The notes under the pieces: generated by a model
The model's database searches: none
Told to the model about the DNA's origin: nothing
Seen by the model: the letters and a program-made list of their open reading frames with translations, nothing else
Made by a program: the position numbers and the translations under genes
Shown: one piece after another, positions 6,623 to 60,564 of the stretch
Numbering within the stretch: the stretch's first letter is position 1
Layout of the letters: each line of letters starts with the position of its first letter
Assembly: GCF_014174395.1 (NCBI RefSeq)
Contig: NZ_JABEQD010000002.1
Location: forward strand, 248,001 to 312,000
DNA from: Gluconacetobacter aggeris
GTDB taxonomy: Bacteria; Pseudomonadota; Alphaproteobacteria; Acetobacterales; Acetobacteraceae
DNA length: 64,000 bases
Direction: 5' to 3'

Positions 6623-6716
6623 AAACGTCTATTCGTTCAGGAACATCGTGTGCCCCCGGCACAAGGCTCCTGAACGAATCAAAGTCTTTTTGCTTCTTTT
6701 TCTTCAGAAAAAGAAG
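6623..6716. repeat. Repeat family F2, copy 1 (palindromic, terminator-like)
   Basis: Perfect 12-bp arms ATTCGTTCAGGA (6631-6642) and TCCTGAACGAAT (6668-6679) enclose a smaller GTGCC/GGCAC hairpin. They are followed by AAAGTCTTTTTG and a hairpin with 11-bp arms CTTCTTTTTCT/AGAAAAAGAAG (6693-6716). The last 38 bases are identical to those of the copy at 17029-17147. The inner GACATCGTGTGCCC-like core is in opposite orientation in the two copies. It lies between DUF934 and the waaA fusion gene and is probably transcribed as a terminator region. Confidence 0.8.
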
Positions 6717-6776
6717 AAACCCTCCTTCCGCGCGCACCCCTTCCGCCCGACAGTCGCCCATGCTACCGCCGAACCC

Positions 6777-8753: not shown

Positions 8754-9736
8754 TGCGCGCCCCCCGTTTCTGGTCCGATAGCGATGGCGGCTGGCCGGCA
8801 AGACTATTGGCCCCCGCCGCCGCCCTCTACGCCCGCGCCACCGCCCGGCGGGTGCGCCAGCCGGGCTGGCATGCCCCAATCCCGGTCCTGTGCTGCGGCA
8901 ACCTGACCGCCGGCGGCGCGGGCAAGACGACACTGGCGCTCGATCTGGTGGCACGGCTGGTCGCACGCGGCCGACGCGTGCATGTGCTCACACGCGGCTA
9001 TGGCCGCCGCCGCGCCGGCCTGCTGCGGGTCGATTCCATCCGCCACACCGCCGCCGATGTCGGGGACGAGGCCCTGCTGCTGGCGTCCCTCGCTCCCACC
9101 CATGTCTCGGCCGATCGCGCCGCCGGCGCCCGGGCCGCCATCGCCGAGGGCGCGGATTGCCTGGTGATGGATGACGGGTTCCAGAATCCCGGTCTCCATC
9201 AGGACATGAAGCTGCTGGTCATCGACGGCGCCAGCGGCTTCGGCAACGGGCACGTCATCCCCGCCGGCCCGCTGCGCGAACCGGTCGCGGCCGGCACCGC
9301 CCGCGCCCACGCCGCCATCCTGATCGGCGACGACCGCACCGGCGCCCTCGCCCGCCTGCCGGGCCACCTGCCGGTCCTGCGCGCCGACCTGGCCATGCAG
9401 GACGCCACCCCGCTGCTGGCCGGCCAGCCGGCCATCGCCTTCGCCGGCATCGGGCGGCCGGAAAAATTCTTCGACGGACTGCGCGCCCAGGGTATCACGC
9501 CGGCAGCCTGCGTGCCCTTCGCCGACCACCACCCCTACACACCCCGCGACCTGAAACACCTGCTGGCACTGGCCGCGGCCCACGGCGCGATAGTGCTGAC
9601 CACCCCAAAGGATGCAGCCCGCCTGCCCCAGGCATTCCGGGCCCGGCTCCGCACCGTCGGCGTCGGCCTCTCATGGACCGACCCGGCCGCGCCGGAACGC
9701 CTGCTGGACCAATGGCTGGAAAGCGCCCCCCGATGA
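8753..9736 (+). CDS. lpxK: Tetraacyldisaccharide 4'-kinase LpxK
   Basis: LpxK phosphorylates the 4' position of the lipid A disaccharide at the inner membrane. It has the Walker-A-like GNLTAGGAGKTTLALDL near residue 47, LTRGYGRR and VMDDGFQNPGL, which is the DDGFQ motif diagnostic of the family. The length of 327 residues is normal. The ATG overlaps the waaA stop by one base, and its own stop overlaps the next start (ATGA). Synthesis of Kdo-lipid A is therefore encoded as one coupled unit. Confidence 0.95.
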   Translation: MRAPRFWSDSDGGWPARLLAPAAALYARATARRVRQPGWHAPIPVLCCGNLTAGGAGKTTLALDLVARLVARGRRVHVLTRGYGRRRAGLLRVDSIRHTAADVGDEALLLASLAPTHVSADRAAGARAAIAEGADCLVMDDGFQNPGLHQDMKLLVIDGASGFGNGHVIPAGPLREPVAAGTARAHAAILIGDDRTGALARLPGHLPVLRADLAMQDATPLLAGQPAIAFAGIGRPEKFFDGLRAQGITPAACVPFADHHPYTPRDLKHLLALAAAHGAIVLTTPKDAARLPQAFRARLRTVGVGLSWTDPAAPERLLDQWLESAPR

Positions 9737-10671
9737 CCCGGCCCCGCGACGAAACCCGCCCCATCACCCGCCTGATGCGGATCGAAGCCCTGGCCGCGCG
9801 CGCTGCCCTGGAGCTGCTGCGCCGGCTGGGTCCGGTGCGGGCCTCGAATGCCGGCGGCGCGCTCTGCCGCGCCATCGGCCCGCGCCTGCCGGTCTCGCGC
9901 GTGGCCGATGCCAACCTGCGCCTGGCCATGCCGGAACTCGACGCCCCGGCCCGCCGGGCGGTCATCCGCGCGGTCTGGGACAATCTCGGCCGCACGGTGG
10001 GCGAATTTCCGCATCTCGCCGCCCTGCCGGAAAATCCGGCCTCCGGCCCCGGCTGGGATGTCGTCGGTGCCGAGCATCTGGCCGAACAGGCGGCACGCGG
10101 CGGCCCGGTCATCTTCATGTCCGGCCATATCGGCAACTGGGAAATGCTCCCCCCGGGCGTGGCCCATCACGGGCTGCCCTTCGCCTCCTTCTACCGCGCC
10201 GCCGGCAATCCGCTGGTCGACGACATGATCCGCACCCTGCGTGAAGCGGCCATGAACAAGGCAACCGGGGGCGAGCCAGTGCCCATGTTCGCCAAGGGCG
10301 CACGCGGCGCACGCGGCGCGCTGGCTCATATCGCCCGGGGCGGCCGCCTGGGCATGCTGGTGGACCAGAAGATGAATGACGGGATCGAGGCCACGCTGTT
10401 CGGCCACCCGGCCATGACCGCCCCCGCCCTGGCCGCCATGGCCCTGCGCTATCGCTGCCCCGTCATCCCCGGCTATGTCGAACGGCTGGGCCCGGCCCGC
10501 CTGCGCATCCATGTCGAACCCAAGCTGGAGCTGCCCGACAGCGGCGACCGGCAGGCCGACATCCTGGCCCTGACGCAGGCAGTCAACGACCGGCTGGAAC
10601 ACTGGGTCCGCGCCCGCCCCGGCACCTGGCTGTGGCTGCACCGTCGCTGGCCGAAATCGCTCAGGCCCTAG
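9733..10671 (+). CDS. lpxL: Lipid A late acyltransferase, LpxL/HtrB type
   Basis: This 312-residue lysophospholipid-acyltransferase-family protein adds a secondary acyl chain to Kdo-lipid A. It carries the catalytic H-x4-E/D motif (GHIGNWEML, around residue 135) and the downstream DQKMNDGIEATLFG segment. A 9-bp tandem duplication at 10300-10317 produces GARGAR. The start overlaps lpxK by four bases. The last codons, CGCTCAGGCCCT, form a perfect palindrome with the bases just after the stop, where repeat F1 begins, so the stop codon is inside the element's left arm. Confidence 0.92.
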   Translation: MTRPRDETRPITRLMRIEALAARAALELLRRLGPVRASNAGGALCRAIGPRLPVSRVADANLRLAMPELDAPARRAVIRAVWDNLGRTVGEFPHLAALPENPASGPGWDVVGAEHLAEQAARGGPVIFMSGHIGNWEMLPPGVAHHGLPFASFYRAAGNPLVDDMIRTLREAAMNKATGGEPVPMFAKGARGARGALAHIARGGRLGMLVDQKMNDGIEATLFGHPAMTAPALAAMALRYRCPVIPGYVERLGPARLRIHVEPKLELPDSGDRQADILALTQAVNDRLEHWVRARPGTWLWLHRRWPKSLRP

Positions 10672-10834
10672 GGCCTGAGCGAAAATGCGCGCTGGCGGCG
10701 ATCCGACGCGCGTTTCCTGCGCTTCGGTGCTCACGGCCATCAAGGCCGCTCCGCTCCGATGCTCGGAAAGCACACGCCGGGCGCGACCCTGCGGGCCGCT
10801 CTCGCTCGCCAGCCCACATTTTCGCTCAGGCCCT
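10670..10834 (+). repeat. Repeat family F1, copy A (structured, follows lpxL stop)
   Basis: This 165-bp element has perfect 18-bp complementary ends: AGGGCCTGAGCGAAAATG at 10670-10687 and its reverse complement at 10817-10834. Inside are a GCTGGCG/CGCCAGC stem, an imperfect hairpin CCGACGCGC/GCGCTTCGG, a CGGCC-ATCAA-GGCCG hairpin, CCGA/TCGG and a near-perfect GCGACCC/GGGCCGC hairpin. Copies B and C share the interior but have different ends that still pair. It begins on the stop codon of lpxL and reads in the gene's direction. The open frames across it (MRAGGDPTRVSCASVL) are not convincing genes. Confidence 0.85.
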
Positions 10835-11159
10835 GACAGGCTGCTTCATCGCACACCCACGCACGGCCCCGTTCATGGTCAATCGGTGGCAAATTCGTCT
10901 CAGAATCGCATCAATCATAGGCAATTCACGCTGCCGATGTGACAAAGCAATGACACACATGACCAATCGCTGATTACGTTTCGATCATATGCATCATTTC
11001 GTGCCTAAAATTAGGTCTTTTTTGCAACAAATCATTGCTTTTTTGCCACATACCCGAATTTCTGCCTTTTTGGGCGGCGGGACGGATCAGATTCAATTTG
11101 GCAATGCCCGTCACCGCGCTCTAGCGTTTCCCTCGCCCCATACTCCGAGGACATGACAG
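10835..11159. other. AT-rich intergenic region, no gene seen
   Basis: About 325 bp much richer in A+T than its surroundings, with several T-runs (around 11020-11080) and a short palindrome CCTAA-AA-TTAGG near 11010. It presumably holds the promoter of the small gene at 11160, but I could not pick a convincing -35/-10 pair. No tRNA-like or coding pattern was recognised. Confidence 0.5.
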
Positions 11160-11519
11160 ATGCCCGCGACGATGATGACCCTGAAGGCGACCACTCCCTC
11201 CACCGACAATGTCGTTCCGCTGCGTGCGAATTTCCTGCCCCGCCACCGGGAATATCTGATGCGCTGGCTGGACGCCGGAACCTGCATGGGACTGTGTGAC
11301 GTCGACGTCTCCCCCCGCTCCGGCAACGGCCCGATCGAGCACGTGCTGGTCTGGGTACGTGAGAACGCAGATCCCGCCTATCTGTTGCGTCCCGAAGGCA
11401 TGAACTGGGTCCTGGTCGACAATCTGCGCGACCATCGGCTGGGCACCTTCAAGACGTTCGAAGCGGCGCTGTACGCAATCCGCCCCGTCCTGGCCTGCGG
11501 CGCGACCGCGGCGGCCTGA
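11160..11519 (+). CDS. Small conserved-looking protein of unknown function
   Basis: This 119-residue soluble protein (MPATMMTLKATTPSTDNVVP) shows no motif I recognise. A good Shine-Dalgarno (GAGGA, 11147-11151) precedes the ATG at 11160, and codon use is GC-rich like that of real neighbours. The middle, RHREYLMRWLDAGTCMGLCDVDV followed by HVLVWVRENADPAY, looks like a compact alpha/beta fold. The tail FKTFEAALYAIRPVL is amphipathic. It stands alone after a long AT-rich leader, which suggests that its expression is regulated. Confidence 0.7.
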   Translation: MPATMMTLKATTPSTDNVVPLRANFLPRHREYLMRWLDAGTCMGLCDVDVSPRSGNGPIEHVLVWVRENADPAYLLRPEGMNWVLVDNLRDHRLGTFKTFEAALYAIRPVLACGATAAA

Positions 11520-11558
11520 ACGCCGCCGCCCCTGCCGCCCTACGTTATCGCCAACCCG

Positions 11559-12974
11559 TCAGCTCTGTTCCCGCGCCAGGCGCCCAGCCGCGGGACTGAC
11601 AATCCGCCCACCGCCCATGGGCTGGATCTGGAAAATCGCCAGATCGCGTCGTGTCTGACCATCGGGCGTCAGCCCGAACACGCCATCCACTCCTGAAAAC
11701 CCGTCCGGCCGCGTCAGGGCCTCGACCGTATAGCCATTCGGCCGGTCCGCCGGCCGCGCCCGGTCCAGCGCCCCGACCAGCGCCGAGGCATCATAGGCCA
11801 GATCGCTCAGCGGCGTCGGCATGGTGTGATAACGCGCCATATAGAGCTGGACGAAACGCTGCCGCGCCGCCGGGTCGGGCGCCGCGTACCACGCGCCCTG
11901 CAACGGCCCCAGCTTGCCGGCAAACGACGCCCACAGCGCCGTCCCCAGAATCCGCACCGGCGGCAGGCCGCCATTCGCCGGCACCGACGAAGCGCTCGAG
12001 GCATCAGCCCTCGCGGCAGCACCTGCTGGCGGCGGCGGCACGCCGATCACCTGGAACGACTGCAACGCGTCGATCACCGCCGCCAGTTGCAGTCCGGTAT
12101 CGGCCAGCAGCAGCGCATCGAAGGGCGGCGGCCCCGGCCGCGACGGTGCGGGCACCGGCTGCGCCTGCTGCACCGCCCCACCCACCGGATCGACCGCCGC
12201 CGCCGCATCGGGCGGCAGCGCGGCCTGGGCGGCAGGCTGTGCCGCGCTCATGCGCGCATCGTAATTGGACAGGGTCTTCAACCCCTGCGTGATGCTGGCG
12301 GGGCTGTCGGTATGATAGACGATCTGGGGCACGGCCAGGCCCCGCGCCGCGCAATCCTGCACCAGCGCACGCCCCATCGCCCGGCCCAGCGCCGTCCCGG
12401 GCAGGAAGGCGGCAAAATGCTGCCGCCCCTCGGCCTGCGCCGCCGCCACCATCCGCGCGACCTGCTGCTCCGGCGCGATCCCCAGCGCCCACACGCCGGG
12501 CCGGCCGACCGACACGTCGCTGGTAAAGGCCAGCATCGGCACCGGGCCCGTCGTGGAAACAGAAGCCGCCTGCATGGTCTCGGCGGCGGTCAGCGGCCCC
12601 AGGATCACGCCATCGCCGGCCGCCAGGGCCGCCTGCGCCGCCGCCCCCGCACCACCGGGCGCACCTGTATCCCGAATATCCAGCGGCGGGGCCGTCGGGC
12701 TGCCCAGCGCCATCCGCGTCGCCGACAGCATCGCCTGGCCCAGCCGCGCATTGCCGCCACTCAGCGGCAGCAGCACGCCGACCGTGCGGCCCGGTACCAC
12801 CGCCGCCGGCGCCGCCGGGGTCACCGTCGCCGCCGGACCGCCCCCCTCGGGGCCGGCACAGGCGGCCAGTCCGGCCAATGATGCCGCCAGCAGCAGTCCG
12901 GCCTTGCCAGAGGGGCCATGACGGGCTGAATCTGCAGGCCGTTTCTGCATCCGGGTTGCGAATGACCGATTCAT
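11559..12974 (-). CDS. Periplasmic-binding-fold lipoprotein, LppC/LpoA-like (penicillin-binding protein activator)
   Basis: This 471-residue lipoprotein has a lipobox (LAGLAAC) after a short hydrophobic segment. A type I periplasmic-binding fold begins at TVGVLLPLSGGNARLGQAM. The fold, length and location next to rsmI match the YraM/LpoA family, outer-membrane lipoproteins that stimulate peptidoglycan synthase PBP1a in gammaproteobacteria; the alphaproteobacterial role is inferred. An Ala/Pro-rich loop interrupts the middle (around residues 255-300). If the first ATG is used, its start codon overlaps that of rsmI on the other strand (13 bp shared). An internal ATG at 12950 (MQKRPADS) would remove the conflict and still leave a signal peptide. 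Confidence 0.8.
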   Translation of the reverse strand: MNRSFATRMQKRPADSARHGPSGKAGLLLAASLAGLAACAGPEGGGPAATVTPAAPAAVVPGRTVGVLLPLSGGNARLGQAMLSATRMALGSPTAPPLDIRDTGAPGGAGAAAQAALAAGDGVILGPLTAAETMQAASVSTTGPVPMLAFTSDVSVGRPGVWALGIAPEQQVARMVAAAQAEGRQHFAAFLPGTALGRAMGRALVQDCAARGLAVPQIVYHTDSPASITQGLKTLSNYDARMSAAQPAAQAALPPDAAAAVDPVGGAVQQAQPVPAPSRPGPPPFDALLLADTGLQLAAVIDALQSFQVIGVPPPPAGAAARADASSASSVPANGGLPPVRILGTALWASFAGKLGPLQGAWYAAPDPAARQRFVQLYMARYHTMPTPLSDLAYDASALVGALDRARPADRPNGYTVEALTRPDGFSGVDGVFGLTPDGQTRRDLAIFQIQPMGGGRIVSPAAGRLAREQS

Positions 12975-14008
12975 CTTCCTCGTCCCTGCCTTTCCACGCA
13001 CCCCATGAAGCGGTGTCCTCCAAACCTGCGCCATCTTCCCATAGCGGAGCCGACCCCGCCCGTCATGCCCCCGGCCCGGACGACACCGTCCCACCGGCCG
13101 AAGACCCCACCGAAGACGAGGACGCTCTCGCCCCCGCCGGCCATCCCGGCGGGGGCGTCCTGACCCTCGTCTCCACGCCCATCGGCAATCTCGGCGATTT
13201 CAGCGACCGCGCGGCCGCAACCCTGGCGGAAGCCGACCTGATCCTGTGCGAGGACACCCGCACCAGCGCGCGCCTGCTGACCGCGCGCGGCATTACCACC
13301 CGCACCGAGCCCCTGCACGACCATAACGAACAGCACCGCATTCCCGCCCTGATCGCTCAACTGGAACGCGGCCGCCGCATCGCCATCATTTCCGACGCCG
13401 GCACGCCGCTGCTCTCCGACCCCGGCTTCCGCCTGGCACGGGCGGCCATCGCGGCCGACATCACGCTGACGGCGGTGCCCGGCCCCAACGCCGCCATCAC
13501 GGCGCTGACCCTGTCGGGCCTGCCGCCGCACCCGTTCATGTTCTCGGGCTTCCTGCCGCCCCGCTCGGCGGCGCGGCGCGAGGTCATGGGCAGGCTGCGC
13601 GCCGCCGAGCAGGCCGGCCTGTCCGCCACCCTGATCTGGCACGAGGCCCCGCACCGGCTGGCCGAAATGCTGGCCGACCTGGCCGACATCTTCGGCACCG
13701 ACCGCCCCGCCGCCGTGGCGCGCGAACTGACAAAACGGTTCGAGGAAGTACGGCGCGGCCCGGTGGGCACGCTCGCCGCCTGGTACGCCGACAATCGGGC
13801 GCGGGGCGAAATCACCGTCCTGCTGGGCCCGCCGGCCGAGGATGACGGCGGCGCCGGCGATCTGGACGACCGTCTGCGCGCGGCACTGGCCACCCTGTCG
13901 GTCAAGGATGCGGCTTCCCTGGTCGCGGGCGCGATCAACCTGCCCCGCCGCACGGTCTATGCCCGCGCGCTGGAACTGGCCCGGCAGGCCGACGACCCGC
14001 ACTGCTAG
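12962..14008 (+). CDS. rsmI: 16S rRNA (cytidine-1402-2'-O)-methyltransferase RsmI
   Basis: RsmI methylates the ribose of C1402 in the decoding centre of the 30S subunit. The tetrapyrrole-methylase fold is clear from LVSTPIGNLGDFSDRA, CEDTRTSARLL, ISDAGTPLLSDPG and VPGPNAAITAL. A proline/acid-rich extension of about 64 residues precedes the conserved core, which is unusual. With ATG 12962 the first 13 bases overlap the divergent lipoprotein gene; a GTG at 13013 would avoid this. The yraM-rsmI pairing is a common gene neighbourhood. Confidence 0.93.
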   Translation: MTDSSSSSLPFHAPHEAVSSKPAPSSHSGADPARHAPGPDDTVPPAEDPTEDEDALAPAGHPGGGVLTLVSTPIGNLGDFSDRAAATLAEADLILCEDTRTSARLLTARGITTRTEPLHDHNEQHRIPALIAQLERGRRIAIISDAGTPLLSDPGFRLARAAIAADITLTAVPGPNAAITALTLSGLPPHPFMFSGFLPPRSAARREVMGRLRAAEQAGLSATLIWHEAPHRLAEMLADLADIFGTDRPAAVARELTKRFEEVRRGPVGTLAAWYADNRARGEITVLLGPPAEDDGGAGDLDDRLRAALATLSVKDAASLVAGAINLPRRTVYARALELARQADDPHC

Positions 14009-14048
14009 CGCCTGCCCGCCGGCGGAAGGGCCACCCGGCACGCCCCGC

Positions 14049-14708
14049 CTATCGGTCACCGATATTCGTATCGAACAGCCCGTCCGGCATCGGGCCGCCC
14101 CCCAGGCGGACATTGAACAGATCGACCTGCGTCGCCTGCCCCTGCGCGTCCACCACGCTCCATGAGCGCAGCGACAATGGATTGTCATGGAACACCAGTG
14201 TCAGGCTCCCGTCTCCCGGCGAGGCCGTCCGCACCAGCGTGACCTGCACCAACCCGTTGGCATGCGCAAAGGCCGTAACGGTCACATCGCCCGACAGTTG
14301 CAGGCCGGGGCGCAGCAGCAACCCCAGGGGCGTCTTGTCCAGCGGCAGGGTCGTGGTCTGGCCCAACTGGCTGTCGTTGAAGACCACCTGCCCATGATTG
14401 GCCACCAGCAGCAGCGGGCTGGGCTTGTCATATTCAAAGCGCATCCGCCCCGGCCGGTCCAGCCACGCGGTGCCCGTGGCCCGCTTGCCGTCCGGCGCCA
14501 GTTGCTGGAACTGCGCCTCCAGCGTCGTGATCCCGTCCAGATAGGTCTGGATACGCTGCACCCAGCCCCGATCGGCAGGCGAAAGCGCCGCCGCCACGGT
14601 CTGGGCGTGCGACGCCGCGACAGGCAGGCAGCCCATGGCCACCAGCCCGCCCAGCAGGCAGGTCGCGATACGGGTCGATAAAGGGGGCAGGCGGTTCGGT
14701 CGCGTCAT
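14049..14708 (-). CDS. LolA-like outer-membrane lipoprotein carrier protein
   Basis: This 219-residue exported protein starts MTRPNRLPPLSTRIATCLLG, with a signal peptide that is probably cleaved after the ASHA near residue 37. The mature part has the LolA signature order: LDGITTLEAQFQQ, then GTAWLDRPGRMRFEYDKPSPLLLVANHG. It probably ferries lipoproteins across the periplasm, or is one of the LolA-like paralogues of unknown cargo. It converges on rsmI with a gap of 40 bp. An in-frame upstream GTG at 14732 would only lengthen the signal sequence. Confidence 0.85.
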   Translation of the reverse strand: MTRPNRLPPLSTRIATCLLGGLVAMGCLPVAASHAQTVAAALSPADRGWVQRIQTYLDGITTLEAQFQQLAPDGKRATGTAWLDRPGRMRFEYDKPSPLLLVANHGQVVFNDSQLGQTTTLPLDKTPLGLLLRPGLQLSGDVTVTAFAHANGLVQVTLVRTASPGDGSLTLVFHDNPLSLRSWSVVDAQGQATQVDLFNVRLGGGPMPDGLFDTNIGDR

Positions 14709-14841
14709 GGTATCCGGTCGGTGGCAGCACATTGGCCGCCCGAACGCCCCGTCAGGGCGCCGGTTCGGTCCGACTTCGTTGCCCGATCATTCCGGCAAGA
14801 TCAAGGCGCTGCCCCCGATGCACCCGCCCTGTCCACCCGCC

Positions 14842-15504
14842 CTATCGCAGACGCCCCGACGCCACCAGCGCCGCCAGCCCCTCCGGCACGGGCATGTCCG
14901 CCGGCAGTTCCGGCGCCGGGCACGGCGCATCCAGCACGGTGCGCATTGGAATCACGCCGGCCCAGACCGGATAATCGCCCTCCGCCCCATCGCCCGGCGG
15001 CGCGTCGCGTACCTTCACGCTGGCCTCCTCGATATCCATCCACAATATAGCGGTCGCCTTGCGTTCCTGATCGGTCATCGGCCGCAGCGTCTCCCACCGG
15101 CCGGGAAAGAAATCCTCGATCATGTCGCGCAGCGCGGCGGCAATCGCCTCCTCCCCCTCCAGCAGATTGGCGGTGCCGAATACCATGGCCGAGCGATAAT
15201 TGACCGAATGGCTGAAGGCCGAGCGCGCCATCACATACCCGTCCATCCGGCTGCATGTCAGGCACACGGGCATCCCCCGCGCCGCGCGCAGAAACCGGCT
15301 GGCCGCCGAGCCATGCCAATAGACCCGGTCTCCCACCCGCCAGTGCAGCGTCGGCGTCACATAGGGCGCGCCATCGACCACATAACCCACATGACACAAG
15401 GGCGAGGCATCCAGCACGGCATACACATCCGCCCGCGCGTGGCTGCCGCGCTCATGGGCACGCCGCACCCGGCTGCGCTGGGTCACGGGGTAGGACTCGG
15501 TCAT
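14842..15504 (-). CDS. Pyridoxamine 5'-phosphate oxidase-fold flavin-nucleotide-binding protein
   Basis: This 220-residue protein resembles the PNPOx-like 'flavin-nucleotide-binding' group, with RAHERGSHARADVYAVLD, a central YWHGSAASRFLRAARG FMN-contact segment and SAMVFGTANLLEGEE. It is not the classical PdxH. The substrate is unknown; a B6-vitamer or a flavin/F420-type reduction are the options. It is divergent from a MocR-type PLP-binding regulator 106 bp away. In many bacteria such a pair forms a self-contained vitamin B6 control unit, which supports a pyridoxal-linked role. ATG 15504 is chosen; a TTG-type extension to 15561 is possible. Confidence 0.83.
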   Translation of the reverse strand: MTESYPVTQRSRVRRAHERGSHARADVYAVLDASPLCHVGYVVDGAPYVTPTLHWRVGDRVYWHGSAASRFLRAARGMPVCLTCSRMDGYVMARSAFSHSVNYRSAMVFGTANLLEGEEAIAAALRDMIEDFFPGRWETLRPMTDQERKATAILWMDIEEASVKVRDAPPGDGAEGDYPVWAGVIPMRTVLDAPCPAPELPADMPVPEGLAALVASGRLR

Positions 15505-15587
15505 CACAGGCTCCTGTTGTCGCCCACCGACGCTGGACGGAAAACGGTCTGGCGTTAACATCCAGTTCTTCCATTTCCATCAGACCA

Positions 15588-15609
15588 GTTGAGCCCCCGT
15601 TGAGCCCAC
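15588..15609. promoter_or_regulatory. 11-bp direct repeats before the MocR gene (putative regulator site)
   Basis: GTTGAGCCCCC (15588-15598) is followed immediately by GTTGAGCCCAC (15599-15609), one helical turn apart and ending one base before the GTG start. GGTCTG (15546-15551) and CAGACC (15581-15586) form an inverted pair in the same divergent region. MocR/PdxR-type regulators are known to bind tandem direct repeats in intergenic regions like this one. No binding evidence is available. Confidence 0.45.
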
Positions 15610-15610
15610 C

Positions 15611-17026
15611 GTGACCGACGCACCCCGTCCTCCGCAGCCCGCCTGGCTGGTCCTCACCCCCGAATCCGGCCCGCTGGAAAGCCAGATCCACCGCGCAATC
15701 CGCGAGCGGGTCCTGGCCGGGCAGCTCGCCGCCGGCGACCGCCTGCCCTCCAGCCGCGCCCTGGCCCGCGCGCTCGGCGTGGCGCGTTCCACCATCGTGC
15801 TGGCCTATGACCGGCTGCGCGCCGAAGGCTTCCTCGACGCCCGCGCCGGCTCCGCCACCCGCGTCGCATCCCTGCCCGCCCCGCCGCTCCACGGGCACAC
15901 GGCCCCGCCGCCATCTCCCGTCCCCGGCACGCCGGATATCGTGCCCGACGCCCTGCGCCCCGGCCTGCCCGATCTCGCATCCTTCCCGCATGCCGCCTGG
16001 GCCCGGTGCCTCGGCGCCCGCGCCCGCGCCGGCCGGCTGATCGACCTGGGCTACGGGGGCCGCGCCGCCGGCGCCCCGGAACTGCGCGCCGCCATCCTCT
16101 CCCACGTCCGGGCCACACGCGGCGTCGTCGCCACACCCGATCAGGTCGTCATCGTCCCGTCGATCCGCGTCGCCGTCGAAGCCATCGCCCGCATCGCCCT
16201 CTCCGCCGCCGCCGACCCCGTCGCCTGGGTCGAGGAACCGGGCTACATCCCCATCCACGCCATCCTGAAAGCCGCCGGCGCCCGGCTGGTGCCCCTCCCC
16301 TGCGACAGCGAAGGCATGGACGTCACCCACGCGCCCGGCCCGCCCCCGCGCCTGATCTGCGTCACCCCCTCGCACCAGTACCCGACCGGCGCGGATATGA
16401 GCCTGCGCCGCCGCCTGGCCGTACTCGCCCACGCCCACGCCAGCGGCACCGTGGTGCTGGAAGACGATTACGACAGCGAATTCCAGTACGACACCCGCCC
16501 GGTCGCCGCCCTGCAAGGCATCGACCGCACCGGATCGGTCGCCTATCTGGGCACGTTCTCCAAGATCCTCGCCCCCGGCCTGCGCGTCGCCTACGCCGTG
16601 CTGCCGCCCCGGCTGGTCGCCCCCGTCACCGATTTCCTCTCCGGACGCGGCATCGCGGTGCCGATCCATCTCCAGCTCGCCCTCGCCGATTTCATCACCG
16701 ACGGCCACCTGCGCGCCCATATCCGCCGCATGAACACCCTCTACGCCGACCGCATGGCCGGCGCCCTCGCCGCCCTGCACCGCCATTGCGACACTGTGCT
16801 GATCCCCGGCCCCGGCACGGGCGGCCTGCAACTGGCCGCGCGCTTCACCGATCCCACGCGCGACGACCGCTCCATCGCCCGCCGCCTATGGTCGCAAGGG
16901 CTCGGGGTCCGCCCACTCTCGGACTATCATCTGGGCCCCACCCAACCCGGCCTGCTGCTGGGCATCGCCTCCGCCACGCCGGAGGCCATGGATCGCGCGG
17001 CACGGGTGATTCGCGCGTGTCTGTAG
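15611..17026 (+). CDS. MocR/PdxR-type regulator (GntR HTH fused to aminotransferase domain)
   Basis: This 471-residue protein has a winged helix-turn-helix at residues ~20-85 (LPSSRALARALGVARSTIVLAYDRL) and a class I aminotransferase-like domain at ~120-470. The PLP-binding lysine is in GTFSKILAPGLRVAY, and EDDYDSEFQYD is typical of the family. Such proteins sense PLP or an amino acid and regulate B6 or related genes. The divergent neighbour is a PNPOx-fold protein, the usual type of target. Start GTG 15611; the 11-bp direct repeats end just before it. The stop is followed within 3 bp by an F2 repeat hairpin. Confidence 0.9.
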   Translation: MTDAPRPPQPAWLVLTPESGPLESQIHRAIRERVLAGQLAAGDRLPSSRALARALGVARSTIVLAYDRLRAEGFLDARAGSATRVASLPAPPLHGHTAPPPSPVPGTPDIVPDALRPGLPDLASFPHAAWARCLGARARAGRLIDLGYGGRAAGAPELRAAILSHVRATRGVVATPDQVVIVPSIRVAVEAIARIALSAAADPVAWVEEPGYIPIHAILKAAGARLVPLPCDSEGMDVTHAPGPPPRLICVTPSHQYPTGADMSLRRRLAVLAHAHASGTVVLEDDYDSEFQYDTRPVAALQGIDRTGSVAYLGTFSKILAPGLRVAYAVLPPRLVAPVTDFLSGRGIAVPIHLQLALADFITDGHLRAHIRRMNTLYADRMAGALAALHRHCDTVLIPGPGTGGLQLAARFTDPTRDDRSIARRLWSQGLGVRPLSDYHLGPTQPGLLLGIASATPEAMDRAARVIRACL

Positions 17027-17028
17027 AT

Positions 17029-17147
17029 GTTCTTTTTTAAAAAAAAGAACCAAAAAACTTTTGATTCGTTCAGGAGTTTTTTGCTGGGGCACACGATGTC
17101 CCAAACGAATAAAAGTCTTTTTGCTTCTTTTTCTTCAGAAAAAGAAG
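17029..17147. repeat. Repeat family F2, copy 2 (bidirectional terminator-like)
   Basis: This copy fills the 126-bp gap between two convergent genes. The hairpin GTTCTTTTTT/AAAAAAGAAC (17029-17050) follows the MocR stop. The hairpin CTTCTTTTTCT/AGAAAAAGAAG (17124-17147) follows the mbfA stop when read on the other strand. Between them lie near-mirror segments ending in ATTCGTT and AACGAAT around a GGGCACACGATGTCCC core, which is inverted relative to copy 1. It is probably a two-way terminator as well as a dispersed repeat. Confidence 0.8.
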
Positions 17148-17152
17148 AACCC

Positions 17153-18112
17153 TTAACCCGCAGACCCGATCAAGATCCCGGCCGCAAACACCAACGCCCC
17201 ACCGAAGACAATCTGCACCACCGCCGAGCCGAACGGCGTATCCTGATACCGCCACCGCACCCAGGAAATCAGCAGCAACTCGACCACCACCACGGCCACG
17301 GCCACACTCATGGCCAGCGGAAACCGGTCGATCAGGAACGGCACGGTATGGCCGATCCCCCCGGCCGTGGTCATCAGCCCGCAGATCAACCCGCGCAGCA
17401 GCGGCGCCCCGCGCCCCGACAATTTGCCGTCATCCGACAGCGCCTCGGCAAATCCCATGGAAATCCCGGCCCCGACCGACGCCGCGATCCCGACCAGAAA
17501 AGCCTCCCATGGCCGGTGCGAGGCAAAAGCCGCCGCAAACACCGGCGCCAACGTGGAGACCGACCCATCCATCAGCCCCACCAGACCGGGCTGGATCACC
17601 TGCAATACGAAGCGCCGCCGCGCGTCCTCGTCCTCATCCTCGCGCTTGCTGGCCGGCAGGCGGTTCAGTTCGATCTCACCCGCCGTCTGCTCGTGCCGGT
17701 CCTCGGCCACCGCCAGATCGCCCAGAAGCTTGCGCGTGGCGGCATCGGTCGTGCGCAACGCCGCCTGCCGATAGAAACGCGCCGCATCCATCTCCATCTG
17801 CCGCGCATAGCCGCGCACGGCTTCGATCCCCAGCCCCTGCACCTGCCAGGCCGGCCGGCGGACCATGACCCCAGCGATATCCTGCCTGCGAATCAGCGGA
17901 ATATGCTGGCCGAACCGCCCCACATACAGGTCGATCAGGTCGCGCCGATGCTCGTTCTCCTCATGCACCATGTCCGTAAAAATCATGGCCGTATCAGGAT
18001 ATTTTTCACGAATGGCATAGGCGAAATCGGCATAGATCCGCGCGTCTTCCTCCTCGTTCGAAATCGCGAGGGCAAGGATTTCCTGATCGTTCAGCGTCGT
18101 GAATTTGCGCAT
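17153..18112 (-). CDS. mbfA: Membrane-bound ferritin-like iron exporter MbfA
   Basis: Residues 1 to about 165 are a ferritin/rubrerythrin-type four-helix domain with metal-ligand motifs NEEEDAR, HEENEHRRDL and EDRHEQT. Residues ~175-319 are a VIT1/CCC1-type membrane domain with about five hydrophobic segments starting at QPGLVGLMDGSVSTLAPVF. This two-part architecture is that of MbfA, an inner-membrane iron exporter of alphaproteobacteria usually controlled by Irr. I could not identify a clear Irr box (TTAGAA-type palindrome) in the 110 bp upstream. Length 319 residues; start ATG 18112. It stands alone between two repeats. Confidence 0.9.
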   Translation of the reverse strand: MRKFTTLNDQEILALAISNEEEDARIYADFAYAIREKYPDTAMIFTDMVHEENEHRRDLIDLYVGRFGQHIPLIRRQDIAGVMVRRPAWQVQGLGIEAVRGYARQMEMDAARFYRQAALRTTDAATRKLLGDLAVAEDRHEQTAGEIELNRLPASKREDEDEDARRRFVLQVIQPGLVGLMDGSVSTLAPVFAAAFASHRPWEAFLVGIAASVGAGISMGFAEALSDDGKLSGRGAPLLRGLICGLMTTAGGIGHTVPFLIDRFPLAMSVAVAVVVVELLLISWVRWRYQDTPFGSAVVQIVFGGALVFAAGILIGSAG

Positions 18113-18225
18113 GGCCACTATATGCCGGAACCCTCCGGTCCTGCACAAGATGTTTCGATATCGTGAGAATTAGTCGCGTTATCGACTACAAGGAAACAAA
18201 CACCGCCAGCACGTCTCTCCACGAA

Positions 18226-18387
18226 GAGCCTGGCCGAAAATGTGGGCTGGCGAGCGAGAGCGGCCCAAGGGGCCGCGCCCGGCGTGTGTTTCCGAGCATC
18301 GGAGCGGAGTGGCCTTGATGGCCATGAGCACCGAAGCGCAGGCAACACGCGCCGGATCGCCGCCAGCGCGCATTTTCGGTCGGGCTC
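18226..18387 (-). repeat. Repeat family F1, copy B (follows gshA stop, reverse strand)
   Basis: Read on the minus strand, this 162-bp element begins on the base after the gshA stop (TGA, 18390-18388). Its ends GAGCCCGACCGAAAATG (18371-18387) and CATTTTCGGCCAGGCTC (18226-18242) pair at 15 of 17 positions. The interior is nearly the same as copy A, but the small hairpin is TGGCC-ATCAA-GGCCA where copy A has CGGCC-ATCAA-GGCCG. The last internal hairpin is a perfect GCGGCCC/GGGCCGC. Confidence 0.85.
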
Positions 18388-19800
18388 TCAGACGGCGGCT
18401 TCGGCGAAGATCCTGCTCACATCGCCCTGCCAGACGCCATGATACCGCTCCAGCCAATACTCGGCCTGGGTCGGCGCGCCAGTCACGATCGCCTGCAACG
18501 GGGCCAGCAGATGGCTCTCATCCCGCCCGTTATTATCCGTCACCGCGCGCGCGCGCAGCCCGTCGGTCGCAATCGCGACCATGCGGGCAGCCAGATCGCG
18601 CGCCGTCCCACCGGCCCACGGCGCATCCAGCCCCCGGCGCGGCACGGCGGCACGCAGCGCCACATAGTCCGTCCAGCCCTGCTCGCGCACCAGCGCGTCG
18701 GCGGCCGTCAGCGCCGCATCGTCATACAGCAGCCCGACCCACAAGGCGGACTGCGCCAGCATCATCTCCGGCGACCCGGCATCCGCGCCGCGCATTTCCA
18801 GGAAGCGCTTCAGCCGCACGTCGGTAAAGGCGGTGGTCAGATGGTCCTCGAAATCGCCGACGGTCGGCACCAGCCCCTCCAGCCCGTCCTGCCGCTCGCC
18901 CTTCATCCAGGCCCGGAACGACCGCCCGGCCACATCCAGGATCTGCCCGTCACGCACGATGAAATACATCGGCACGTCCAGCAGCCATTCCACATAGGCC
19001 GCGAACCCGAAGGACGGATCGAAGAAGGCCAGCGGCATGCCCGAGCGCACATTGTCGGTATCGGTCCACACATGGGCACGGTTGGAGAGCAGCCCGTTCG
19101 GCTTCCCCTCATAGAAAGGCGAATTGGCGAACAGCGCGGTCGCCACCGGCTGCAACGCCAGAGACACGCGCAGCTTGCGCAGCATGTCGGTCTCGGAGGC
19201 GAAATCCAGATTGACCTGCACGGTGCAGGTCCGTGTCATCATATCCAGCCCCAGCGTGCCGACCTTGGGCATGTAGTTGCGCATGATCGCATAGCGGCTC
19301 TTGGGCATCCACGGCATGTCCGCGCGGCGCGCCAGCGGGTGAAAGCCCAGCGGCGCGAAACCGATGCCCAGCGAGCGCGAAATGGGGCGGATCGCCTCGA
19401 AATGCCGGGCCATCTCATGGCCCGTATCGTGCAGGCTGGCCAGCGGCGCGCCCGACAGTTCGAACTGCCCCGCCGGCTCCAGCGACACCGAGCCGCCGCG
19501 CTCGGAGCCGATGCCCTTCAGCCCGATCAGCTTGCCCTTGTCCTCGATCGCTTCCCACCTGCCGCCGCCATCCTGGCGGTTCAGGTCGGTCAGGATCTCG
19601 CCAATCCCGTCGGGTGCATAGGGCGGAGGCATCCAGGGCGCCCGCCCCGGCCCGGCGGCAGCCGGCAGGACAAAGCCGAATTTCTCATGCTCGGTGCCGA
19701 TGCGCCACCGTTCGCGTGGCTTGCCCCCATCCGCCAGCAACCCGGCCAGTTGGCCGATCGATTCAATAGGGGTGATATCTTGCTCGCCGGGGTTCGACAT
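18388..19800 (-). CDS. gshA: Glutamate-cysteine ligase GshA (plant/alphaproteobacterial type)
   Basis: This is the first, ATP-dependent step of glutathione synthesis, joining glutamate and cysteine. The 470-residue protein shows IGTEHEKFGF near the N-terminus, EPAGQFELSG and TVQVNLDFASE, characteristic of the GCS2/plant-type family. I chose ATG 19800 (MSNPGEQD); a TTG at 19821 would add seven residues and is nearer to a GAAGG sequence. It is 75 bp downstream of rsmE on the same strand. The gap holds two small hairpins, ACCGACCGGTCGGT at 19863-19876 and CGACGGA/TCCGTCG. F1 copy B starts right after the stop. Confidence 0.93.
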   Translation of the reverse strand: MSNPGEQDITPIESIGQLAGLLADGGKPRERWRIGTEHEKFGFVLPAAAGPGRAPWMPPPYAPDGIGEILTDLNRQDGGGRWEAIEDKGKLIGLKGIGSERGGSVSLEPAGQFELSGAPLASLHDTGHEMARHFEAIRPISRSLGIGFAPLGFHPLARRADMPWMPKSRYAIMRNYMPKVGTLGLDMMTRTCTVQVNLDFASETDMLRKLRVSLALQPVATALFANSPFYEGKPNGLLSNRAHVWTDTDNVRSGMPLAFFDPSFGFAAYVEWLLDVPMYFIVRDGQILDVAGRSFRAWMKGERQDGLEGLVPTVGDFEDHLTTAFTDVRLKRFLEMRGADAGSPEMMLAQSALWVGLLYDDAALTAADALVREQGWTDYVALRAAVPRRGLDAPWAGGTARDLAARMVAIATDGLRARAVTDNNGRDESHLLAPLQAIVTGAPTQAEYWLERYHGVWQGDVSRIFAEAAV

Positions 19801-19875
19801 CGTTTCTGAATAAGCCTTCAAAGACAGAACGGATCGACGGATGGGTCCGTCGCAGCCATGCGACCGACCGGTCGG

Positions 19876-20628
19876 TTAGCGCGAATCTGCACCAGACGCG
19901 CGCCGGAAGCCAGCCCCCATCAGGGACAGGCCGCATGCCGCCGCCGTGTCCGCCCGCAGGATCAGTTTTCCCAGCGTGATCATCCTGACAAACGGCCGCG
20001 CACGCAACATCCGCCGCTCGGCATCGGAAAAGCCGCCCTCGGGGCCGACCAGCAGCCCGTCCCCATCGGCCACGCGGTCGATCTCCCCTACCCCGTCATC
20101 CGGCCCGCTGCGCTCGGCCGCCACGAACAGGGTACGCCCGGCCGGCCACGCCGCCAGATGCTCGGGCAGGCGCGCCGGTTCGCCGATCGCCGGCACATCC
20201 AGCCGCTCGCATTGTTCCGCCGCCTCGACGGCAATCGCTTCCAGCCGTCCGACATTCACCCGGTGGGTATTGGTGCGCTCGGTCAGCACGGGCAGAAAGC
20301 GCGTCACCCCCAGCTCCGTGCCCATGCGCACCACCATGTCGGTGGCATCGCGCTTCAGCGGCGCGAACAGCAGCACCGGCCCACGGGCCGGCTCCGGCGC
20401 GCGGCGGCGATGCAGCAGCCGCACCTGCGCACGGTCGCGCCGCACCGCCACCAGGCTGGCCAGCCACTCCCCGTCCCGGGCATTGAACAGCGCGACTTCC
20501 GCCCCCGGCGCCATCCGCATCACGGTGCCGAGATAATGGGCCTGACCCGGCTCCAGATCGCGTACCGCATCCGCCTCCATCGGCGGCCGGCCGGCCGGAT
20601 CGGCGAACAGGCGGGGACAATCCTTCAT
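19876..20628 (-). CDS. rsmE: 16S rRNA (uracil-1498-N3)-methyltransferase RsmE
   Basis: This is a SPOUT-class methyltransferase of 250 residues that modifies U1498 of 16S rRNA. Diagnostic segments are RHRRRAPEP...LLFAPLKRDATDMVVRMGTELG, the ERTNTHRVN loop and the knotted C-terminal SAM site LLVGPEGGFSDAE followed by LGKLILRADTA. It lies upstream of gshA and divergent from ubiA, an arrangement common in alphaproteobacteria. Confidence 0.93.
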   Translation of the reverse strand: MKDCPRLFADPAGRPPMEADAVRDLEPGQAHYLGTVMRMAPGAEVALFNARDGEWLASLVAVRRDRAQVRLLHRRRAPEPARGPVLLFAPLKRDATDMVVRMGTELGVTRFLPVLTERTNTHRVNVGRLEAIAVEAAEQCERLDVPAIGEPARLPEHLAAWPAGRTLFVAAERSGPDDGVGEIDRVADGDGLLVGPEGGFSDAERRMLRARPFVRMITLGKLILRADTAAACGLSLMGAGFRRASGADSR

Positions 20629-20794
20629 GACGACATCACCTCCGACCTGCCGGCAACGCGCCCTCCCGCGTCCGGCCCTTGACCACGTCCCTCCCCCGCC
20701 CCATCACACGCGGGCACGAGAGGCTGTTTCAAAAGCCCTCTCAGCTGCACCCGATGCCTTTATTGTGCCCGTGTGTCCAGACGGAGACCCCAGC

Positions 20795-21709
20795 GTGACC
20801 CCGCTTCCCCATACCGACATCCGGACCACAGGCTGGATCAGCCACCTGCCGGCAGCCCTGCGCCCCTACGCGCTGCTGGCCCGGCTGGACCGCCCCATCG
20901 GCACCTGGCTGCTGTTCCTGCCCGGCCTGTGGGGCATCCTGCTGCCCGGCGGGGTCGCGGCCGTCGAGCGCCTGCGGCTGACGCTGCTGTTCGCCTTCGG
21001 CAGCGTGGTGATGCGGTCGGCCGGCTGCGTGGTCAACGATATGTGGGATCGCGACATCGACCGCATGGTGGCACGCACGGCCGGCCGGCCGCTGGCCTCG
21101 GGCGCGCTGCGCATGCGCCAGGCCGCCTGGTTCCTCGCCCTGCTGCTGGCGATCGGGCTGATCATCCTGCTCCAGCTCAATCCGCTGTGCCGCGTGCTGG
21201 GCGTGGGGTCGCTGCTGCTGGTGGGGCTGTATCCGCTGGCCAAGCGCTTCACCTGGTGGCCCCAACTGGTCATGGGCTTCACCTTCGGCTTCGGCGCCCC
21301 GATGGGCTACGCGGCGGCGGCCGGGCGCATCGACGCCGCCTGGGCGGCGCTCTATGCCGCCACCATCCTGTGGCAGCTCGGCTTCGACACGATCTACGGC
21401 TTCCAGGACATGGAGGACGATGCGCGCATCGGCGTCAAATCGACCTCGCGCCTGTGGGCGGGCCAGCCCCGGCTGTTCGTCGGCACGTGCTACGCGCTGG
21501 CGGTGCTGGCCCTGCTGCTGGCCGGCTGGCTGGCCGGCTGCACCATCGGCTTCTGGGTGGCGATGGTGCTGCCTTCCGTCGCGCTGGGCTGGCAGGTCGC
21601 CCATCTCGACAGCACCGATCCGCGCCGCTGCCTGATGCTGTTCCGCTTCAACCGCGAGACAGGGCTGGCGGTCGCCCTGGCCATCCTGGCCGGACTCACC
21701 AGCCGATGA
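20795..21709 (+). CDS. ubiA: 4-hydroxybenzoate polyprenyltransferase UbiA
   Basis: UbiA prenylates 4-hydroxybenzoate in ubiquinone synthesis at the inner membrane. Both aspartate-rich motifs are present: NDMWDRDID near residue 85 and YGFQDMEDDARIG near residue 205. They are embedded in about eight hydrophobic segments. I chose the GTG at 20795 because GGAG lies eight bases upstream (20783-20786); the open frame continues back to 20627 without a conserved pattern. The gene product matters here because PQQ and flavoprotein dehydrogenases of this organism feed ubiquinone. The stop overlaps the next start (ATGA). Confidence 0.93.
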   Translation: MTPLPHTDIRTTGWISHLPAALRPYALLARLDRPIGTWLLFLPGLWGILLPGGVAAVERLRLTLLFAFGSVVMRSAGCVVNDMWDRDIDRMVARTAGRPLASGALRMRQAAWFLALLLAIGLIILLQLNPLCRVLGVGSLLLVGLYPLAKRFTWWPQLVMGFTFGFGAPMGYAAAAGRIDAAWAALYAATILWQLGFDTIYGFQDMEDDARIGVKSTSRLWAGQPRLFVGTCYALAVLALLLAGWLAGCTIGFWVAMVLPSVALGWQVAHLDSTDPRRCLMLFRFNRETGLAVALAILAGLTSR

Positions 21710-22356
21710 GCACCCGCCCCGATCCCGAATCCTTCATCCTCGCCAACACCAGCCCCGCCCACGCCCCGCTGGTGCCCGAAATCACGCTGCACCTCGCCAC
21801 CCAGATCACCCCGATATGGCAGGCCAGCGAGGACTGGCTGACCCGACAGGGTATCGAACCACCTTTCTGGGCCTTCGCCTGGCCGGGCGGCCAGTTGCTG
21901 GCCCGCCATATCCTGGATAATCCCGCCCTGGTCGCCGGGCGCCGGGTGCTGGATTTCGCGGCCGGATGCGGCATCGCCGCCATCGCCTGCGCGCAGGCCG
22001 GCGCCAGCATGGTGGAGGCCGCCGAAATCGACCCGCTGGCCGTCGCCGCCATCACGCTCAACGCCCGCGCCAACGGCGTGGCGATCGCCGCCACCGGGCA
22101 GGACCTGGTCGGCACCACCCCGCGCTGGGACCTGATCCTGTGCGGCGATGTCTGCTACGAAAACCCGATGACCGAGCATATCCTGCCCTGGCTGCGCACC
22201 GCCGCGCGCACCGCCGAGGTCTGGATCGCCGATCCCGGCCGCGCCTACCTGCCCCGCGCCGGCCTGCACCCCATTATCACCCGCGACGTCCCGACCACCC
22301 GCGAACTCGAGGATCGGGAGACCAGACGCACCACCCTCTACCGCATCACCCCCTGA
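21706..22356 (+). CDS. Class I SAM-dependent methyltransferase (ETF-beta/protein-lysine methyltransferase-like)
   Basis: This 216-residue Rossmann-fold methyltransferase has motif I VLDFAAGCGIAAIA, an acidic loop AAEIDPLAV and LILCGDVCYENPM, an N/D-x-x-Y/F-like motif resembling the METTL20/ETF-beta methyltransferase group. The substrate is not certain; lysine methylation of electron-transfer flavoprotein is a reasonable guess from family resemblance. It is translationally coupled to ubiA. The tandem F1 array begins inside its stop codon. Confidence 0.8.
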   Translation: MSTRPDPESFILANTSPAHAPLVPEITLHLATQITPIWQASEDWLTRQGIEPPFWAFAWPGGQLLARHILDNPALVAGRRVLDFAAGCGIAAIACAQAGASMVEAAEIDPLAVAAITLNARANGVAIAATGQDLVGTTPRWDLILCGDVCYENPMTEHILPWLRTAARTAEVWIADPGRAYLPRAGLHPIITRDVPTTRELEDRETRRTTLYRITP

Positions 22357-22785
22357 GCCTGCCTGGAAATGCGCGCTGGTGGCGATCCGACGCGCGTTTC
22401 CTGCGCGTCGGTGCTCACGGCCATCAAGGCCGCTCCGCTCCGATGCTCGAAAACACACGCCGGGCGCGGCCCGTTCCGGTCCGCTCTCGCTCACCAGCCC
22501 ACATTTCCAGACAGGCTCCGATCAGAAAGGCGCGCCGATCGCGATCCGACGCGCGTTTCCTGCGCGTCGGTGCTCACGGCCATCAAGGCCGCTCCGCTCC
22601 GATGCTCGAAAACACACGCCGGGCGCGGCCCGTTCCGGTCCGCTCTCGCTCACCAGCCCACATTTCCAGACAGGCTCCGATCAGAAAGGCGCGCCGATCG
22701 CGATCCGACGCGCGTTTCCTGCGCGTCGGTGCTCACGGCCATCAAGGCCGCTCCGCTCCGACGCGCATTCCCCGCCTGAATGGCG
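22355..22785 (+). repeat. Repeat family F1, copy C: 159-bp tandem array, about 2.4 units
   Basis: The first unit (22355-22518) has ends GAGCCTGCCTGGAAATG and CATTTCCAGACAGGCTC (22502-22518), matching at 16 of 17 positions. The interior then repeats with a period of exactly 159 bp, from GCGATCCGACGCGCGTTTCC at 22382, 22541 and 22700. The third unit breaks off at about 22762. It is joined to CGCGCATTCCCCGCCTGAA, which read on the minus strand is an F1 start just after the stop of the convergent GGDEF/EAL gene. Stem 2 here is GCTGGTG/CACCAGC where copies A and B have GCTGGCG/CGCCAGC. The period is divisible by three, so spurious reading frames run through. Confidence 0.92.
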
Positions 22786-59212: not shown

Positions 59213-59304
59213 CCCCGGTTTGAACAAGCCTGTTTGAACCGGGGCAGAGACCGGGGCCTGGCGGCAAACGCGCGCGCACAACATTCCGACGCGCGTTTGC
59301 CGCC
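59213..59304 (+). terminator. Two strong hairpins after the aldehyde dehydrogenase operon
   Basis: Hairpin one has CCCCGGTT/AACCGGGG with an inner AACA/TGTT stem (59213-59244). Hairpin two has perfect 15-bp arms GGCGGCAAACGCGCG and CGCGCGTTTGCCGCC (59260-59274 and 59290-59304). No T-run is present. CCGACGCGCGTTT in the second resembles the interior of repeat F1, so it may be a degraded relative. Confidence 0.55.
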
Positions 59305-60370: not shown

Positions 60371-60515
60371 TGAAGGTTTTATTATCAATGCTTCAAATAC
60401 ATAAAAAGAAACAAATCAATAAAGATTGACACTTTCCATTCACTCCCCCCTGCCACGAATATCCGTGTGGCGCTCCCTGGCGCCCGCCCCCCTTGCGTCC
60501 CGACGGACCTGAAGC

Positions 60516-60564
60516 CTGTGTGGAAATGCGCGCCGGATCGCCACCAGCGCGCATTTCCACACAG
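60516..60564 (-). repeat. Repeat family F1, copy D (minimal hairpin form)
   Basis: Perfect 18-bp arms CTGTGTGGAAATGCGCGC (60516-60533) and GCGCGCATTTCCACACAG (60547-60564) enclose a 13-base loop. Read on the minus strand, the first 31 bases match the left end of copy C (GGAAATGCGCGCTGGTGGCG...) and then join directly to a right end, so the ~115-bp interior is deleted. The outer six arm bases differ from every other copy yet still pair perfectly. Confidence 0.8.

Follow-up and report, generated by a model that had tools for sequence, protein, structure and literature searches.

Miniature inverted-repeat transposable elements (MITEs) have terminal repeats that their copies share, and insertion sequences of the IS200/IS605 type enter in one orientation, on the 3' side of a fixed short motif. 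Repetitive extragenic palindromes (REPs) and bacterial interspersed mosaic elements (BIMEs), together with their REP-associated tyrosine transposases (RAYT, of type Y1), are described in PMC3733652, PMC8266576 and PMC2817692. REPs are 20-40 bp long and carry a GTAG or CGTC tag. According to PMC3733652, the ends of GTAG REPs often give flanking open reading frames their stop codon, and the REPs of Pseudomonas entomophila and Sphingomonas wittichii are close to gene ends. In Escherichia coli, REPs at most 15 nucleotides (nt) from a stop codon are reported to stall ribosomes and to reduce translation (work cited in PMC12306157), and about 11% of the REPs found there lie within that distance. Here we describe a family of longer palindromes, first seen in 64,000 nt of the Gluconacetobacter aggeris genome (contig 2, positions 248,001-312,000, called the window below), most full copies of which begin on stop codons and are oriented as the gene upstream of them.

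The element resembles REPs in being a GC-rich palindrome with many extragenic copies (84 sites for its left-end pattern and 50 for its core pattern in the source genome), mainly in tandem and convergent spacers and near 3' ends (53 of 67 full copies). In contrast to REPs it reaches 165 nt, its consensus ends are AGAGCC...GGCTCT (43 long copies; columns of 67) instead of either tag, and no RAYT/Y1 gene was found in the 24 genomes of the family Acetobacteraceae that were searched. It also differs from them in a fixed register, a fixed orientation and compensating arms that are private to each copy. With the stalling REPs of E. coli it shares a hairpin directly past the stop on the sense mRNA; here 53/67 full copies lie less than 20 nt from a stop, in a constant register, compared with the 11% cited above. 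Placement near gene ends and stops is already known from REPs, and it is the length, register, orientation and private compensating arms that set this family apart. The likeness to MITEs lies in a short, mobile sequence with terminal inverted repeats and no coding capacity seen, but the 67 full copies have 58 distinct left arms where a MITE would have one shared terminal repeat. Targeting of the IS200/IS605 type would account for the sense orientation, but no such transposase (PF01797) was found in the family genomes searched.

Literature listings of open-access papers gave no account of this element, apart from its core in Thalassospira. A table in PMC6413936 lists TTCGGTGCTCACGTACTTTTAG (5p) and TGCGCTCCGATGCGCGTGAACC (3p) as a bacterial microRNA from Thalassospira small-RNA libraries, and the two match the core hairpin of the element in the same sense orientation. 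The hairpin is presented there as a microRNA, in a passage that mentions neither stop codons nor mobility. This listing hints that the core hairpin is transcribed.

Placement at stop codons

The sequence-only reading had described three copies in the window (A, B and C) whose left arms start on the stop codon of the upstream gene and which have the orientation of that gene on either strand, and both statements hold. The stem begins at the second base of the TAG of a lpxL-like gene (copy A), at the second base of the TGA of a methyltransferase gene (copy B) and, on the minus strand, at the third base of the TGA of gshA (copy C); coordinates are collected in table 1. A partial start reported at the stop of a GGDEF/EAL gene is real but weak: it is where the third, truncated unit of the copy B array ends, with an AATGCGCG stretch 16 nt past this stop.

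The source genome (G000, 4.32 Mb) was searched with the DNA of the element, giving at least 47 matches (the best 40 of 207 candidates scored), and then with patterns allowing up to three mismatches, whose reversed controls had no site for either the left end or the core. Merging gave 92 sites, and 99 anchors were measured; a full stem is present in 67, and the other 32 are truncated or degenerate. The long form, with an inner part of 135-140 nt and an overall length of about 165 nt, accounts for 43 of the 67 full copies. The remainder are short forms (inner part 33-41 nt, about 59 nt overall), intermediates and one copy with an inner part of 166 nt.

Gene ends were taken from our own codon-usage-based gene caller, not from an annotation, and the stop statistics rest on 348 called genes. 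Defining a copy as near a sense stop when its left end is less than 20 nt from the end of a same-strand gene, 53 of the 67 full copies qualify, starting between -16 and +17 nt from it. The left end falls at -3..+1 of the stop in 39 of the 57 copies that could be tested, against 4.18 expected for uniform placement within the same spacers, so that a random inserter would not give this placement. The spacers themselves also show the orientation: 37 copies are sense and five antisense between tandem genes, 21 are between convergent and two between divergent genes, and two are cut by a fragment end. Among the 74 anchors with a nearby sense stop (weak anchors included), the distance from the stop to the AAATG anchor is exactly 12 nt in 34; in nine it is 4 nt, the stop there being a TGA inside the arm. 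The stop types at the 53 copies (TGA 42, TAG 6, TAA 5) are close to those of all called genes (257, 46 and 45). The tabulation of distance and orientation that had been proposed thus confirms that placement at stop codons in the sense of the gene holds genome-wide, and copies are placed likewise on the same genes of sister species and in other genera. The 14 exceptions were read singly: one may end a 66-codon gene, four are 8-18 nt and one is 38 nt from a stop on the opposite strand, and the others have no stop nearby.

Hairpin structure and compensating arms

Copy A folds as one end-to-end hairpin on both strands (sense -106.9 kcal/mol, z -6.2; antisense -131.5, z -9.2). The consensus fold of the 43 long copies has 51 pairs, with double changes in 31 of them. 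The outer arms, of about 12 bp (majority consensus AGAGCCTGnCCGn), vary from one copy to another, and also among species at a single gene, and stay complementary. Watson-Crick pairs occupy 778/871 outer-arm cells, compared with a mean of 57% and a maximum of 62% in 5000 shuffles, a figure raised by the fact that the 67 copies were picked by stem pairing.

The arms were also compared at the same gene in different genomes. The comparison has 46 rows, all past a pairing threshold that favours paired arms, and four of them (D-G005, E-G003, K-G006 and N-G006) were dropped, there being no copy at those places by the automatic rule and by eye. Where the coding flank is at least 94% identical (26 comparisons), 74/312 arm pairs differ from the source genome, and 47 of these 74 have changed on both sides and still pair. 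In more distant genomes (16 comparisons) 47/192 differ, with 29 changed on both sides and still pairing. With flanks hardly changed, such private compensating arms cleanly record, in nature, how selection (or else template copying) has acted on the stem.

The two strands are not equivalent. The antisense strand folds better in 43/43 long copies (mean -118.0 vs -99.0 kcal/mol; consensus -100.4 vs -68.0) and in 19/20 copies from other genera. For the long copies this comparison has 203 G-U cells against 29 A-C cells, and among the pairs common to the folds of both strands 47 cells would be G-U on the antisense strand, compared with 23 on the sense one. Part of the difference is due to composition, because shuffles of copy A average -87.2 on the antisense and -78.4 on the sense strand. 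Candidate sources of the antisense advantage are an intermediate of single-stranded DNA, transcription of the antisense strand and the history of the element.

The element is not an intrinsic terminator, because a run of four T, no further than 15 nt from the right arm, follows only 2/67 copies. The covariance models of Rfam 15 gave nothing over copies A, B and C (window 9000-24000; five chance-level matches, E up to 1), and no match at gathering level in seven loci.

Turnover among sister genomes

Comparing loci with and without the element in sister genomes (numbered G001 onwards; loci are lettered) revealed gains, losses, internal deletions and stacked copies. One of these genomes, G003, is about 95-96% identical to the source genome and collinear with it at the window. 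Copy A is present in these two and absent from the 12 others of the 14 genomes read at this gene; in G007 the DNA past the gene is altogether different. Locus E has a short copy in the source genome and G007 and a long one in G010 and G005, and is empty in five of the nine genomes read (G003, G001, G006, G004 and G008). The copy at C2:132733 is long in the source genome and short in G003, with identical arms, and the arms of the gshA copy differ among the source genome, G003, G007 and G001. At locus H both G003 and G007 have a new copy at the stop, with the start of the older copy, of the type found in the source genome, downstream of it. Locus Q in G007 holds a short chimera of two arm types. 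This presence, absence and stacking between sister genomes shows that the family is mobile.

By an automatic rule, 42 of the 108 locus-genome pairs read, out of 169 possible, have a copy, 38 of them starting at -3..0 from the end of the stop, and 66 are called empty; the rule overlooks some copies visible by eye (at E in G010 and G005, at F and J in G001, at H in G006, and the chimera at Q in G007). We also considered that the copy supplies the stop of its gene. As a general rule this was rejected, since at loci D, E, F, K, M and N the copy-free genomes have their stop at the same place, but where the stop lies inside an arm it may be supplied by the copy.

Locus D bears on the earlier suggestion that the element prefers terminators as targets. 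Here the source genome has a copy between the stop and a canonical terminator, and the same terminator follows the stop in the copy-free genomes G003, G007, G001 and G006, which speaks against such a preference. A hairpin at this locus in G010 is perhaps a short form that has degenerated.

Distribution beyond Gluconacetobacter

Copy A was matched in 20 of the 40 genomes searched, the source included: all 14 of the genus, four others of the family and two others of the class. From four other genera of the family, 27 of 30 fetched loci were read; in 19 of the 27 a sense gene ends between -45 and +24 nt from the point where the core match starts. Two further loci are extra units of one tandem array. 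In these genera, too, each copy tends to have arms of its own, and an arm can extend across the stop codon (L279 and L298). At L279, L295 and L298 the host gene's stop codon and the bases next to it are complementary to the right arm, as if this arm were copied from the gene end or adapted to it.

The core is also found on plasmids. A Sphingobium core was matched in 28 plasmid records, and on some rhizobial and sphingomonad plasmids related cores stand just past stops; a plasmid search with a copy from the window gave one record, and one with a copy from another genus of the family gave no match, nor did the phage collection searched. Fifteen plasmid places were read, 13 of them annotated, and in eight of the 13 the core begins 41-48 nt past the end of a sense coding sequence (related plasmids contribute one and the same gene twice). 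In Sphingobium the arms are 20 nt long, pair with each other and begin at the final base of the stop codon of dmpG. The conjugative plasmid pMSHV of Sphingobium herbicidovorans, which belongs to another order, has the same architecture (L303, 1461-1610), its arms AAGGACCGGCCGCTATTCAG and CTGAATATCGGCCGGTCCTT starting from this dmpG stop. At the gshA 3' ends of relatives there was no copy in the 11 read, taken from the best 80 of 594 matched stretches.

Targeting, selection and possible function

The explanation that we tentatively favour is that these are REP-like, non-autonomous palindromes which enter at stop codons in the sense of the gene, and whose hairpin at the stop hinders terminating ribosomes. 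The family, in its long, short and intermediate forms, would spread by entering DNA at the stop codons of genes, and each copy would fold into a single long hairpin at the start of the 3' untranslated region, its base touching the terminating ribosome. By analogy with the REPs of E. coli, this hairpin would hinder the ribosomes that finish the gene and so buffer its output, and it may also shield the 3' end of the mRNA. Stalling is the most likely function, judged from this analogy and from position. The role in the 3' untranslated region put forward by the sequence-only reading is in this respect plausible for the termination of translation, in view of the work cited in PMC12306157, whereas intrinsic termination of transcription finds no U tract to support it; effects on decay, termination or ribosome release can be envisaged.

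Placement would result from a mild preference for C followed by a stop triplet, made sharper as selection removes copies that lie in genes, promoters or the spacers of operons; since such a motif is asymmetric, it would also fix the orientation. A C precedes the stop at 44/53 copies, compared with 192/348 genes (p 8.5e-6), and a TGA is found at the right end of 15 + 4 of the 67 copies, against about one per offset. As evidence on a target-site duplication of the MITE kind, this right-end TGA is also present where the left stop is TAG or TAA, and the empty sites place the junction only to about 4 nt. A strict CTGA target, which we considered as well, is weakened by the usage of TAG and TAA stops. 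A preference for C together with selection may explain part of the placement.

Several observations weigh against the favoured explanation. Fourteen of the 67 full copies are away from any sense stop, 32 of the 99 anchors lack a full stem, and of the 13 annotated plasmid places two have their coding sequence end at 61 and 92 nt and three do not fit. The selection of the 67 copies and of the arm-comparison rows by pairing inflates the pairing figures. A role on the sense mRNA does not predict the better fold of the antisense strand in every long copy, and a CTGA target does not predict TAG and TAA stops at about their background rate. The enzyme searches, which covered PF01797 and PF00078, found no mobilising enzyme: Y1 transposases (PF01797) were absent from the source genome and from the 24 family genomes, with controls matched in 5/14, and reverse transcriptases (PF00078) from the source genome, with controls matched in 3/14.

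Much of the same evidence could be read as the trace of a functionless MITE, a possibility that we consider unlikely but serious. Such an element would insert 3' of a CTGA-like motif in a fixed orientation, C-TGA stops would be the commonest harmless sites, and selection would leave the sense survivors. The C bias and the right-end TGA agree with it, as do the CTGA found at 26/44 convergent and 47/93 tandem stops of copy-free spacers and the presence of only 2/67 copies in divergent spacers despite 80 other CTGA sites in 52 such spacers. However, convergent spacers have 19 copies on stops and two elsewhere, whereas the available CTGA sites divide 26 to 18 (p 0.011), stop types are not shifted to TGA, and the arm compensation at single loci would be unexpected in a dead element.

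In a wider interpretation, which seems improbable to us, these would be widespread alphaproteobacterial mobile palindromes that recognise the translation stop and not a DNA motif, with insertion at any stop type, newest-first stacking, paired private arms and a structurally constrained antisense strand. It is likewise improbable, perhaps slightly more so, that the element has been domesticated as a signal for the 3' end, terminating or stabilising the transcript there, and is kept next to stops by selection, with mobility of little weight. A very stable fold, compensating arms and a preference for gene ends would suit such a signal, but the copies lack a U tract (four T in 2/67, as above), at locus D a canonical terminator stands behind the copy and is the one that orthologs without a copy use, and many orthologs have no copy at all (66/108 pairs by the automatic rule, which overlooks some). 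It is improbable, too, that the end of translation itself directs insertion, for instance by way of an RNA or of single-stranded DNA where the ribosome stops, which would make any functional stop a target irrespective of its sequence: near-background stop types (42, 6 and 5 vs 257, 46 and 45), the 12-nt register in 34/74 anchors and an antisense fold pointing to a structured intermediate (43/43; other genera 19/20) are set against the lack of a reverse transcriptase (PF00078) in the source genome, a C bias that suggests a DNA-level motif and a composition that covers part of the strand difference.

This family of REP-like palindromes bears on whether repeats next to stops arrive there by targeting or are left there by selection. 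Sister genomes have the same gene without a copy, with a single or a replaced copy, or with two copies stacked, and thus offer natural pairs on which both targeting and an influence on expression can be tested.

Features of the window

The copies and their host genes are listed in table 1. The short form at 60516..60564 departs from the placement of the other copies listed.

Table 1. Copies of the palindromic element in the window and the genes next to them.
Feature	Position	Strand	Details
Lipid A biosynthesis acyltransferase gene (lpxL-like), upstream of copy A	9733..10671	+	Stop TAG 10669-10671; PF03279 1.3e-41
Copy A, long form	10670..10834	+	Arms AGGGCCTGAGCGA / TCGCTCAGGCCCT; folded
Copy C, long form	18225..18388	-	Arms AGAGCCCGACCGA / TCGGCCAGGCTCT; arms replaced in sister G003
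Glutamate-cysteine ligase gene (gshA), upstream of copy C	18388..19800	-	Stop TGA 18390-18388; TIGR01436 4.6e-156, above cut-off
Small methyltransferase gene, upstream of copy B	21706..22356	+	Stop TGA 22354-22356; PF05175 1.4e-7, PF06325 3e-8
Copy B, first unit	22355..22518	+	Arms GAGCCTGCCTGG / CCAGACAGGCTC
Copy B 159-nt tandem array, second and truncated third unit	22519..22770	+	Repeat families D1 and D2; one unit fewer in G003
Convergent GGDEF/EAL gene	22786..26793	-	Stop TGA 22788-22786; PF00990 and PF00563
Short form, perfect stem	60516..60564	-	Nearest sense stop 226 nt before; counter-example to the stop rule

Other repeats and structures are found in the same window. At 59254-59303, 47 nt past a stop at 59207, a hairpin akin to the left end of the family stands behind a canonical terminator-like hairpin. 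It is followed at 59330-60388 by a reading frame of 352 amino acids, by eye AT-richer than its neighbours and partly found by the gene caller, which may have been acquired. An AT-rich repeat (TCTTTTTGCTTCTTTTTCTTCAGAAAAAGAAG and its inverted partner) occurs at 6654-6721 and 17033-17152, also after gene ends, and relatives of it come after the locus D terminator in G003 and G007.

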